A stretch of 64,000 nucleotides of DNA from Alphaproteobacteria bacterium (lineage in GTDB: Bacteria; Pseudomonadota; Alphaproteobacteria; Rhodobacterales; Rhodobacteraceae). The number at the start of each line of letters is the position of its first letter. The stretch's first letter is position 1. The notes beneath the pieces are model-generated. The model worked only from the letters and a program-made list of their open reading frames with translations, was not told where the DNA came from and did no database searches. The stretch lies in the NCBI GenBank assembly GCA_003331935.1, contig QOQE01000006.1, positions 1 through 64,000 on the forward strand, read 5' to 3'. Position numbers and translations under genes: made by a program. Shown here piece after piece: positions 7,364 to 17,159 of this stretch.

Positions 7364-7672
7364 TTAAATTGTCTCATAAAGGGTATTAACTTCCATTAAG
7401 ACCTCCTCATTCCAAATCTTTGTGTCTAGACCAAACTCAAGACAGTTCATTATATATTGAAGACACTCACTATGTCTTTTCTCCCTGGTCCTAAATACTA
7501 CAGAGCTATCTAAATCGCAGGAAACGTGAACTGAGCATCCGTTAGAAATTATAGTTTGCCCGTCTAAACGAATAAAATCACTCCAGGTCTTTTCGTTCTC
7601 TTTGAATAATTCTTTTACATCCTTCAACGTAACTTTTTTTGAAATCGATTTATATGATTCGTACATACTCAT
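7364..7672 (-). CDS. Hypothetical 102-residue protein behind an SOS-type promoter
   Basis: I do not recognise this protein. It is 102 residues, soluble-looking, with no signal peptide or membrane segment. The N-terminal 35 residues are rich in Lys/Glu and probably helical. The middle (about 38-66) carries two cysteines in a GCSVHVSCDLDSS strand-like stretch. The C-terminal 35 residues look helical and acidic. Codon use resembles neighbours. The ATG at 7672 is 6 bases from a TATTTT -10-like box, with a perfect GTTC-N7-GTTC repeat between it and a TTTACA -35-like box. This suggests LexA control and perhaps a leaderless message. A damage-induced checkpoint or repair accessory role is a guess from the promoter only. 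Confidence 0.6.
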   Translation of the reverse strand: MSMYESYKSISKKVTLKDVKELFKENEKTWSDFIRLDGQTIISNGCSVHVSCDLDSSVVFRTREKRHSECLQYIMNCLEFGLDTKIWNEEVLMEVNTLYETI

Positions 7673-7677
7673 ACATG

Positions 7678-7707
7678 AAAATAGAACAAAAAAAGAACAT
7701 TTGTAAA
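7678..7707 (-). promoter_or_regulatory. SOS-type promoter with LexA direct repeat (box 7684-7698)
   Basis: Read on the minus strand: TTTACA (7707-7702), an 18-base spacer, then TATTTT (7683-7678). The spacer holds GTTC-N7-GTTC exactly (7698-7684), with seven T between the halves. A LexA dimer bound here would cover the space between -35 and -10, the usual geometry for SOS genes in this class. The -10 ends 5 bases before the ATG of the 102-residue gene. Confidence 0.6.
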
Positions 7708-7749: not shown

Positions 7750-7923
7750 ATGACCAAAAGGACATATGAAATAGACGCGGAAAATATCGAAGTCGCACAA
7801 GATTTTGAAGAAGCAGTAAAGGACAAACGTGAAAATTGGCGAGCGAATATAACAAAGAGACGACAAAGACAACGTAGATATAAAAAACGACTTACGAAGC
7901 AACTGCTAAAAAAATATGCATAA
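7750..7923 (+). CDS. Small basic hypothetical protein, 57 residues
   Basis: An ATG at 7750 opens 57 codons to TAA at 7921-7923, ending 2 bases before the convergent dehydratase gene. The N-terminal half is acidic (TYEIDAENIEVAQDFEEA) and the C-terminal half is strongly basic (runs such as RRQRQRRYKKR), ending in LLKKYA. This regular charge pattern looks like a real protein rather than noise; a nucleic-acid- or ribosome-associated role is possible but not shown. No clear Shine-Dalgarno sequence is seen. A TATAAT at 7741-7746 is too close to serve this start, while TATATT at 7721-7726 could. The opposite-strand frame over the same bases looks like a shadow. Confidence 0.5.
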   Translation: MTKRTYEIDAENIEVAQDFEEAVKDKRENWRANITKRRQRQRRYKKRLTKQLLKKYA

Positions 7924-11685: not shown

Positions 11686-11700
11686 GAACAAACAATGAAC
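11686..11700. promoter_or_regulatory. LexA (SOS) box at imuB start
   Basis: GAAC at 11686-11689 and GAAC at 11697-11700 are separated by exactly 7 bases, the alphaproteobacterial LexA direct repeat. The second half overlaps the imuB ATG (11695-11697). A possible promoter just upstream is TTGGAC (11656) with GATTAA (11677), only 15 bases apart, so weak. imuB-dnaE2 cassettes are established LexA targets, which makes this match more credible than sequence alone. Confidence 0.7.
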
Positions 11701-13404: not shown

Positions 13405-14286
13405 ATGCAATTTCAGAAGAATAATACATTAGATACTAAAGCTCTTGGGCTTGAGGTCTCTTTGGCAATAGCAAAATTTGTTACTGGGAAAGAGAACATG
13501 CACTATGGCGTTTGGGATAATCTAGACCCTTGTCTTGAAAATTTGGGTAAAGCTCAAGAACAGTATACACAGCTACTGTTCAAATACTTTCCAAAAAAGA
13601 AAAAGCTGAAGATTCTTGATATTGGTGGAGGTGCTGGAGAAACAGCGAGGAAGCTAATCTCCTTAGGCCATAGCGTTACTGTTGTTGTACCTAGCAACAT
13701 ACTAAGCAGACGGTGCTTGGAAAATACAGGTAATAAAGCCGAAGTTCATAATATAAAGTTTGAGGATTATAAACCAAAAAAAAATCAGACATTTGACTTA
13801 TGTCTCTTTTCAGAAAGCTTTCAATATATTCCTGCAAAAATTGCGTTGGAAAAGGCTAAAGGATTACTAAGTAAAGATGGGCAAATATTAGTTGCAGATT
13901 GCTTCCGCTCCAATCTCAAGAATAATAGTCACAACAGAAGGCCGGGAGGAGGGCACCCTTTATCAGAAATGCTAAAACTCATTAAAGATATAAATTTGAA
14001 TATTGTATCAAAAAAAGAAATAACAAAGTCTGTTGCTCCATCTTTGGATATAGAGCAAAGATTTTACAATGTAGTTGGTGTTGGAATAGACAAGTTACAA
14101 CAAGGTTTAGTGACAAGCTATCCTTGGAAAATGAAACTGTTTAATCTCGTCTACAAGACGATAGTAAGCCAGAAAAAGCGCAGGCGTTTACACGATAGAA
14201 TTTATGGAAATATAAGAAATTCCGATAATTTTATCAAATTTAATCACTACATGATCTTTCAATTGTCTTCCAATAAGGCAGGTTGA
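13405..14286 (+). CDS. Class I SAM-dependent methyltransferase inside imuB-dnaE2 cassette
   Basis: 293 residues. SAM motif I is ILDIGGGAGET at 70-80, followed by a normal Rossmann pattern (FDLCLFSESFQYIP, ILVADCF). The middle part (GGGHPLSEMLKLI) and overall layout recall small-molecule or lipid methyltransferases of the UbiE/tocopherol-methyltransferase type rather than DNA methyltransferases; no DPPY or PC motif is present. The C-terminal 70 residues are basic. It lies 21 bases after imuB and 26 before dnaE2, so it is very probably co-transcribed with them. The substrate is unknown; a methyltransferase at this place in the cassette is not something I know from described examples. Confidence 0.75.
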   Translation: MQFQKNNTLDTKALGLEVSLAIAKFVTGKENMHYGVWDNLDPCLENLGKAQEQYTQLLFKYFPKKKKLKILDIGGGAGETARKLISLGHSVTVVVPSNILSRRCLENTGNKAEVHNIKFEDYKPKKNQTFDLCLFSESFQYIPAKIALEKAKGLLSKDGQILVADCFRSNLKNNSHNRRPGGGHPLSEMLKLIKDINLNIVSKKEITKSVAPSLDIEQRFYNVVGVGIDKLQQGLVTSYPWKMKLFNLVYKTIVSQKKRRRLHDRIYGNIRNSDNFIKFNHYMIFQLSSNKAG

Positions 14287-14312: not shown

Positions 14313-17159
14313 TTGTCGTATTCAGAACTTTGTATAACGTCTAATTTTAGCTTTCTAGAAGGAGCTAGTCATCCTGAAGAGTATGCGGAAAGGGCCATAA
14401 AGTTTGGGTTAAAATCTATAGCAATTGTCGACAAAAACTCCATTTCTGGAGTTGTGAGAGGGCTTAGAGTAATAAAAGAGATTGAATGTGATACTAAAAG
14501 CAAGTGCTCTTCTCTAAAAATAATACCTGGGGTTACTATCGTCACAACTCATAGAACTGAAATAACATGCTTAGCTCAGACACGACAAGGATGGAAAAAT
14601 ATATGTAAAATTTTAACTATCGGCAAAAAAAATTCGAAAAAAGGTTATTCCCATATTGACTATAAAAATATTATCAAAAACCAAGATGGCATTATATTCT
14701 TAGCTCATATTTCAGAAAAAAATCATAGTTTTTCAGAAAGACTTGGGTGGTTAAGGTTTATCCAGAGGCTCAAAAGAAATAGTAGTAGATCTGTATACAT
14801 AGTTATGGCGCCTAAATATGACGGCTTAGATGAAATACGCTTTTACAAAATTAATAAATTTGCAAAAAACATTGAGTGCGAGGTTGTAGCATCCTCTACT
14901 CCTGTAATGCATCATGGCTCCAGGCGAAAAGTCAGAGATACTTTATCTGCAATAAGAATGAAATGCACCATAGATGACCTGGGCATTGAATCAAGCATTC
15001 ATGGGGAACAAAGAATGAGATCACCCCATGATTTTGCAACGATATTTAAAGAATATCCTGAAGCAATACACAACACTAACCTTGTAAGTGATAGATGTTT
15101 ATTTTCTTTAGATGAACTAAGCTATACATACCCTAAAGAAGTGCTAAGAGGAGAGAACCCTGACACAATATTACATAAGCTAACCTTTAACGGATTAAAT
15201 GAATATTATGAAAAAAATATTCCTATAAAAATATTAAAAGGAGTAAAAAAAGAGCTTCTGTTAATAAAAAAACTAAAATATGCTCCTTATTTTTTAACAG
15301 TGTATGACATAGTGAAATTCGCAAGAGGTAGAGGTATTTTATGTCAAGGTCGTGGCTCTGCCGCTAATTCCATAGTTTGTTTTTCTTTAGGAGTAACATC
15401 TGTTAGCCCAGAGATTGGATCAATGGTATTTGAGCGATTCATATCAGAAGCAAGAAATGAACCTCCTGACATTGATATTGATTTTGAACATGAACGCAGA
15501 CAGGAAATAATAGACGAAATTTACAGAAAGTATGGCAATAGAAGAGCTGCATTATGCGCTACAGTCGTCCACTACAGAGCGAAAGGAGCAATAAGAGATG
15601 TGGGTAAAGTAATGGGGCTAAGTGAGGAAATAATATCCTCAATGGCTGAAAATATTGTTGGATGGGATAGATATAAGATACCTCATTACAACAGTATCAG
15701 TTTAGAAGGCAAGAATGAGCACACTAGAATATTAGAGACTTTGTCCATCAGCGACCAACTGATAGGCTTCCCTAGACACTTAGGTCAGCATGTGGGTGGC
15801 TTTATAATCACTGAGGATTATTTAGATGAGCTTACATCTATTGAAAATACTGCTATGGAAGGAAGGAGTATAATAGCATGGGATAAAGACGACATAGACT
15901 TTTTAGGCATACTAAAGATAGATATTCTAGCCCTTGGAATGCTAACATGCATAAAGAAATCTTTTGATTTAATAGAAAACCATCACAATCGGCAAGTTAG
16001 CCTAAACAACATTCCACATCGAGATACATGTGTCTTTAATATGCTTTCGAAAGCAGACACTATAGGGGTTTTTCAGGTTGAGAGCAGAGCTCAAATGAAC
16101 TTCCTTCCAAGATTAAAACCACAATGTTTTTATGATCTAGTAATACAAGTTGCCATAGTCAGACCTGGGCCAATTCAGGGGGACATGGTTCATCCCTATA
16201 TAAAAAGAAGAAACGGAAAAGAAAAAGTCACTTTTCCTTCCCAAAAACTAAAGGAAATTCTTGGTAAGACTCTTGGCGTACCATTATTTCAAGAACAGGC
16301 AATACAAATTGCAATGAAAGGTGCAGGATTTTCGTTGGAAGATACTGATAGACTGAGAAGGTCATTAGCGACATTCAAGAGAAACGGTACTGTTAATAAA
16401 TTTAAGAAAAGATTTGTTGATGGGATGCAAAAAAATGGGTACGACAAAGATTTTGCCACAAGGTGCTTTTCTCAGATATCTGGTTTTGGTGAATACGGAT
16501 TCCCTGAAAGTCATGCAGCAAGCTTCGCTATTCTTGTATATGCATCTGCTTGGATAAAATATCATTATCCTGATGTTTTTGCTTGCGCTTTACTAAACTC
16601 TCAACCGATGGGATTCTACTCTGCTTCCCAAATAATACGTGATGCAAAAAATCATGGGGTAAAAGTCAAAGAAGTATGTATAAACAGAAGTCAATGGGAT
16701 CATTCTCTAGAAAATAACGGCGAAGCTTGTCTTAATTTACGACTGGGGTTCAGGCAGATCAAAGGACTTTCAAAAAATGATGTCGATAGAATTATTGAAG
16801 AGAGAGGCAACGGTTATAATGATCCTCAGGATTTATGGCATCGTATTAGACTGAGCCCTAGTGTTATAAAGCTACTGGTTAAAGCAAATTGCTTTCACTC
16901 TCTTAATAAGAATAGAAGACTATTACTTTGGGATGCTCAAGCTATAAAAAAAACAAATTCTTTAGCCCTTTTTGAAGGTTATTCTGAGAAAGAATACTTG
17001 CCAGAGAAGAGTGTTAATCTTCCTAATATGACTTCAGGCGAAGAATTGATTCTAGATTATCAATCTTTACGGTTGAGTCTTTCTACACACCCCGTCAAAC
17101 TACTAAGACCATTTCTTAGAAAAAGCTTCATAGAAAAATATTGCGCGAGCAGCGTCTAA
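14313..17159 (+). CDS. dnaE2: Error-prone DNA polymerase DnaE2, C-terminally short
   Basis: 948 residues from a TTG start; the family is usually about 1050-1100. DnaE2 (ImuC) is the C-family polymerase of SOS mutagenesis. A PHP domain (about 1-260) starts with SELCITSNFSFLEGASHPEE, matching family N-termini and fixing the TTG. The polymerase site has Asp386, Asp388 and Asp390 (PDIDIDFEHERR), plus GRGSAAN at 347-353 and FGEYGFPESHAASFA. A helix-hairpin-helix region follows. The protein stops soon after YQSLRLSLSTHPVKLL, where relatives continue into an OB fold; that domain is missing, and no remnant is visible in the 3' sequence. A hairpin covers its last codons. Confidence 0.88.
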   Translation: MSYSELCITSNFSFLEGASHPEEYAERAIKFGLKSIAIVDKNSISGVVRGLRVIKEIECDTKSKCSSLKIIPGVTIVTTHRTEITCLAQTRQGWKNICKILTIGKKNSKKGYSHIDYKNIIKNQDGIIFLAHISEKNHSFSERLGWLRFIQRLKRNSSRSVYIVMAPKYDGLDEIRFYKINKFAKNIECEVVASSTPVMHHGSRRKVRDTLSAIRMKCTIDDLGIESSIHGEQRMRSPHDFATIFKEYPEAIHNTNLVSDRCLFSLDELSYTYPKEVLRGENPDTILHKLTFNGLNEYYEKNIPIKILKGVKKELLLIKKLKYAPYFLTVYDIVKFARGRGILCQGRGSAANSIVCFSLGVTSVSPEIGSMVFERFISEARNEPPDIDIDFEHERRQEIIDEIYRKYGNRRAALCATVVHYRAKGAIRDVGKVMGLSEEIISSMAENIVGWDRYKIPHYNSISLEGKNEHTRILETLSISDQLIGFPRHLGQHVGGFIITEDYLDELTSIENTAMEGRSIIAWDKDDIDFLGILKIDILALGMLTCIKKSFDLIENHHNRQVSLNNIPHRDTCVFNMLSKADTIGVFQVESRAQMNFLPRLKPQCFYDLVIQVAIVRPGPIQGDMVHPYIKRRNGKEKVTFPSQKLKEILGKTLGVPLFQEQAIQIAMKGAGFSLEDTDRLRRSLATFKRNGTVNKFKKRFVDGMQKNGYDKDFATRCFSQISGFGEYGFPESHAASFAILVYASAWIKYHYPDVFACALLNSQPMGFYSASQIIRDAKNHGVKVKEVCINRSQWDHSLENNGEACLNLRLGFRQIKGLSKNDVDRIIEERGNGYNDPQDLWHRIRLSPSVIKLLVKANCFHSLNKNRRLLLWDAQAIKKTNSLALFEGYSEKEYLPEKSVNLPNMTSGEELILDYQSLRLSLSTHPVKLLRPFLRKSFIEKYCASSV

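Follow-up and report, generated by a model that had tools for sequence, protein, structure and literature searches.

The gene orf102 lies in the window, i.e. the whole stretch of 64,000 nucleotides that was analysed, directly downstream of a promoter-like sequence that contains a putative LexA operator, and shares its upstream intergenic region with a second small ORF of opposite direction:

7364..7672, minus strand: orf102, ATG start, 102 codons, 102 aa
7684..7698, minus strand: LexA-type putative operator GTTCTTTTTTTGTTC, GTTC-N7-GTTC, found in the window and in 14/14 relatives
7678..7707, minus strand: promoter-like TTTACA-18-TATTTT, overlapping the orf102 box
7750..7923, plus strand: divergent ORF of 57 aa, basic (pI 10.3), intergenic region common with orf102

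The predicted orf102 product is acidic (pI 5.2), contains four cysteines (window copy) and is probably soluble, with no membrane-like stretch in 19-residue hydropathy windows (highest value 0.87). An earlier note on this DNA had called it an orphan of no recognised family, and so it proved against the Pfam and NCBIfam profiles, SulA and DinI included, none of which matched at E<=1; a PHROGs search gave a single match, to a family of unknown function, at E=0.2. Comparison of the window copy with 14 relatives gives a median dN/dS of 0.14 and differences at codon positions 1/2/3 of 116/83/339, the pattern expected of a sequence on which purifying selection is acting.

On the minus strand, TTTACA begins at 7707 and is followed by an 18-base spacer and by TATTTT, the last base of which is 7678; the perfect GTTC-N7-GTTC (7698-7684) sits between the two, 11 bases ahead of the ATG at 7672, just as the earlier note described it. 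Since the -10 element lies so close to the ATG, ending 5 bases ahead of it, a leaderless transcript is probable. How much weight can such a box bear in one genome? The window holds five GTTC-N7-GTTC against 1.5 expected (2/100 shuffles reach five), the whole genome holds 28 against 44 matches of the reversed control, and the promoter-like pattern occurs at chance rate (three in the region against 2.8 expected). With the genome's boxes below their control and the promoter match at chance, the evidence from this single genome is weak, and the weight for the orf102 box comes instead from its conservation across relatives.

Conservation and range of orf102

One scan of public genomes found 14 relatives of orf102, 82-89% identical, and the search for the same box before homologues, proposed with the original observation, found it in every one of them, at -26 as in the window (-27 in one), most commonly with the spacer ACTTTTT. 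In an alignment of the 14 ungapped sequences, from which L042 was left out for one inserted base, all 8/8 half-site bases are invariant; outside the box, 19/30 columns from -45 to -1 are invariant too, i.e. the whole orf102 promoter is fairly conserved. Could the box nevertheless have arisen by chance or be a fossil, in a gene that damage does not control at all? The genome-wide excess of reversed-control matches would allow this reading, but the fixed place of the box in 15/15 sequences and the sharing of its motif with core SOS genes (see below) speak against it, making it quite improbable.

Judged by their lengths, the contigs of 13 of the 14 relative loci belong to the 22 genomes of the genus; the remaining one, L035, comes from a bin with a gammaproteobacterial label and is a contig of 6.5 kb. 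Altogether, orf102 is present in 14/22 genus genomes and in 0/39 other genomes, and has so far been found only in this one genus of uncultured marine alphaproteobacteria. Its absence from the other eight is not taken as real, because in seven of them the pssA-like neighbour was not found, and in the eighth it is truncated by the end of the contig; in five (G009, G012, G013, G019 and G020) the imuB contig stops short of the expected orf102 place, the other three being G001, G008 and G021.

The divergent 57-aa ORF, for which no family match was found, is under strong purifying selection (median dN/dS 0.06). It occurs in exactly the 14/22 genus genomes that carry orf102 and in 0/39 others, and the box ends 50-51 bases ahead of its ATG, both of which would suit a box that mainly serves this gene, or a single divergent unit made up of the two. 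However, the box lies between the -35 and -10 elements of orf102 but, by inspection, upstream of the likely promoter of the 57-aa ORF, so that we regard such an arrangement as unlikely.

Candidate LexA boxes across the genus

The LexA that the earlier note's reading of the box presupposes is present in the genome, above the TIGR00498 cut-off, as is RecA (TIGR02012, likewise above its curated cut-off). What we take to be the AG cleavage site and the Ser/Lys residues of LexA can be seen by eye in the genome's protein. A box with one mismatch precedes lexA; recA and imuA have boxes in promoter position, and another overlaps the start of imuB. A tight form of the motif, GTTC-N4-TTTGTTC, picked after the boxes of this genome, that of orf102 included, had been seen, occurs at 93 places in the 22 genus genomes, compared with 42 for the reversed control. 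All 93 were classified, and 81 fall at six genes:

imuA: 21 places
imuB: 17 places
recA: 15 places
dnaE2 OB piece: 14 places
orf102: 13 places, in orthologues from one genus and thus not independent
38-codon ORF: 1 place
elsewhere: 12 places

The box GTTCACTTTCTGTTC of the orf102 relative L043 lies outside the tight motif. Nine of the 12 places elsewhere fall within ORFs that are 120 codons or longer. Among the 12, L088 belongs to a half-site array ahead of another small ORF; L141 and L143 (position 1001) have tight boxes between longer ORFs, before unidentified ORFs, in one genome each.

The name imuA is a putative one, given by context: the product has no match in Pfam, NCBIfam or PHROGs, and distant homologues abut or run into a gene annotated as 'DNA polymerase Y family' in six of the ten plasmid records listed. 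In Caulobacter, the LexA motif is GTTCN7GTTC and recA and imuA are among the genes controlled (PMC12700426, PMC9578287). The operator motif is the same, recA and imuA are among the targets here as there, and in both cases the operator overlaps the promoter, whereas orf102 itself has no family match in Pfam, NCBIfam or PHROGs. For the roseobacter Dinoroseobacter shibae, LexA sites have been computed in a report whose text names neither imuA, dnaE2 nor an OB-fold (PMC6473078).

DnaE2 as two putative pieces

Further along the window lie several genes that bear on this motif:

11686..11700, minus strand: LexA-type box GTTCATTGTTTGTTC, overlapping the imuB start codon
11695..13383, plus strand: imuB-like gene, 562 aa, IMS (Y-family) domain; imuB name by context
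13405..14286, plus strand: class I SAM methyltransferase gene, between imuB and dnaE2
14313..17159, plus strand: dnaE2, 948 aa, without C-terminal OB domain; covers positions 5-940 of NF004225, a profile of 1047 positions

All 17 imuB boxes of tight form in the genus share the same offset, and the order imuB-methyltransferase-dnaE2, together with a dnaE2 form of 948-951 aa, was found in 13/13 regions read, that of the window included. A relative has a separate ORF of 111 aa (L177, 1501-1833) that covers NF004225 positions 938-1037 and carries the OB domain. On these predictions, the error-prone polymerase DnaE2 is split in two, into the 948-aa part and an OB piece at a second locus, with LexA-type boxes upstream of both parts, that of the large part being the box of imuB. 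The OB piece was found in 15/22 genus genomes, the genome of the window (90% complete) not among them, and 14/15 have a tight box, the fifteenth lying outside the examined set. Among 149 genomes of the family, 128 have a match. By frame length, the 137 matches listed divide into 54 up to 220 aa, 10 from 221 to 500 aa, two from 501 to 999 aa and 71 with 1000 aa or more; contig ends could account for part of the short frames, and three of the matches in long frames are weak. Both short-frame loci that were fetched (2/2) have a tight box at the gene start, GTTCTATCTTTGTTC in L237 and GTTCTCTTTTTGTTC in L238. Since the family has repeated cases of short OB frames, boxed in these two loci, the split seems to be older than the genus. 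Literature searches listed no report of a split DnaE2, which is weak evidence of novelty.

The comparison with the ImuA-ImuB-DnaE2 mutasome thus has two sides: its genes share their motif with orf102, and imuB lies 4 kb from orf102 in the window, but hhalign sees no relation between orf102 and ImuB (probability 0.3%).

Search for distant relatives of orf102

Where does orf102 come from? Its A1 profile, run against 385 genomes of the class, returned its own gene alone at E<=0.01; at E<=5, the 295 genomes of the family yielded 37 hits, namely that in its own genome, one in another genome of the genus and 35 that are weak, the best weak match (E=0.015) having three stops inside. A pattern-based scan of viral contigs and a search of phages gave no match, the best hit among PDB sequences had E=0.84, and an Enterococcus plasmid matched at E=0.1 (34%) with a hypothetical protein encoded close to ssb. 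Across these profile, genome, phage, plasmid and PDB searches, nothing outside the genus emerged as a convincing relative. Such isolation would be compatible with capture of the gene from a phage or plasmid, or with an origin from a gene fragment, for example of propionyl-CoA carboxylase beta: 16/28 weak loci encode a protein that we take to be PccB-like, matched in sense mainly at FIRLEGQT, and hhalign aligns orf102 with PccB over 38 columns at 42% identity with a probability of 27%, compared with 0.3% for ImuB. However, PccB had been preselected from the 295-genome search, the matches are orthologues of a single protein, and a probability of 27% is not significant; capture, for its part, has against it the empty viral-contig and phage searches and a plasmid match of E=0.1 only. 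The PccB likeness was accordingly set aside as chance, given that preselection, and an origin by capture or from a fragment is held to be very improbable, the least probable of the readings weighed here.

The structure of orf102 is not predictable from so shallow an alignment: mean pLDDT is 41.6 with the alignment and 50.8 for the single sequence. Foldseek with the single-sequence model returned nothing at E<=0.001, and the model is too poor for matches to count.

The division-inhibitor question

Inhibitors of the SidA/DidA type block septation through FtsW/FtsN. A soluble counterpart, i.e. an SOS-induced cytoplasmic division inhibitor or checkpoint factor resembling SulA in role, is what the SOS-type control of orf102 might bring to mind, all the more as SidA of Caulobacter is also small and SOS-induced, an inner-membrane protein of 29 residues that acts on FtsW (PMC4211646). 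The likeness to SidA, however, ends with small size and SOS-type control, for orf102 has 102 residues and, unlike SidA/DidA, no membrane-like stretch. It was rejected as a small inner-membrane protein of this type on its highest 19-residue hydropathy of 0.87, and it matches neither SulA nor any other Pfam or NCBIfam profile at E<=1.

A likelier candidate inhibitor is encoded elsewhere. The triple array GTTC-N7-GTTC-N7-GTTC occurs at 17 places in 14/22 genus genomes, compared with three for the reversed control, and 13 of the 17, in 13 genomes, precede a 38-codon ORF with one hydrophobic stretch (L160 at G000:C27:9033-9058, L161-L167, L169 and L171-L174). This predicted membrane ORF is a SidA-like candidate, and a better one for division inhibition than orf102; its presence behind the array in 13/22 genomes further lowers the prospects of a checkpoint role for orf102, which we consider doubtful. 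In one genome, four phased GTTC half-sites (L170/L175, G008:C1:76237-76273) stand before a different hydrophobic ORF of 39 codons.

The earlier note had seen in orf102 a damage-induced orphan and a candidate checkpoint or repair factor. The first part holds up well, in that the gene is an orphan and, judging from its upstream sequence, very probably SOS-controlled through LexA; the checkpoint part is unsupported by the tests run, the product looking soluble and the membrane ORF fitting that place better.

A genus-specific LexA-repressed gene?

Taken as a whole, the likely explanation is that orf102 is a genus-specific SOS gene repressed by LexA, the product of which would serve, on a weaker footing, as a soluble accessory to RecA or the translesion machinery. 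LexA bound to the GTTC-N7-GTTC between the -35 and -10 elements would exclude RNA polymerase from orf102; upon DNA damage, RecA filaments would trigger the self-cleavage of LexA, and orf102 would be expressed. The gene is very probably under LexA because its box is conserved and the motif is common to recA, imuA, imuB and the dnaE2 OB piece, and we are rather confident that LexA would indeed bind there and that damage would induce the gene.

What the protein might do under such control can be suggested more tentatively. An accessory role alongside RecA or the ImuA-ImuB-DnaE2 translesion machinery is favoured, as the other recurrent targets of the motif are RecA and this machinery, and as the separate membrane ORF better fills the place of a division inhibitor. 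Nothing in the orf102 protein itself ties it to DNA repair, and the role rests on shared regulation alone; it is thus a possibility to which we lean without much confidence. Less probable still, orf102 might be an SOS effector of a new kind, for instance an added subunit of a rearranged translesion machinery specific to this genus, in which DnaE2 would have been divided between two genes under LexA control and imuA moved away from imuB.

Beyond model bacteria the SOS response is known mostly by homology, so that lineage-specific members are missed. The comparison made here adds an orphan protein to the likely LexA regulon of an uncultured marine alphaproteobacterial genus, and it also yields a better candidate for a division inhibitor and an error-prone polymerase that, by its predicted genes, is encoded in two separate pieces.
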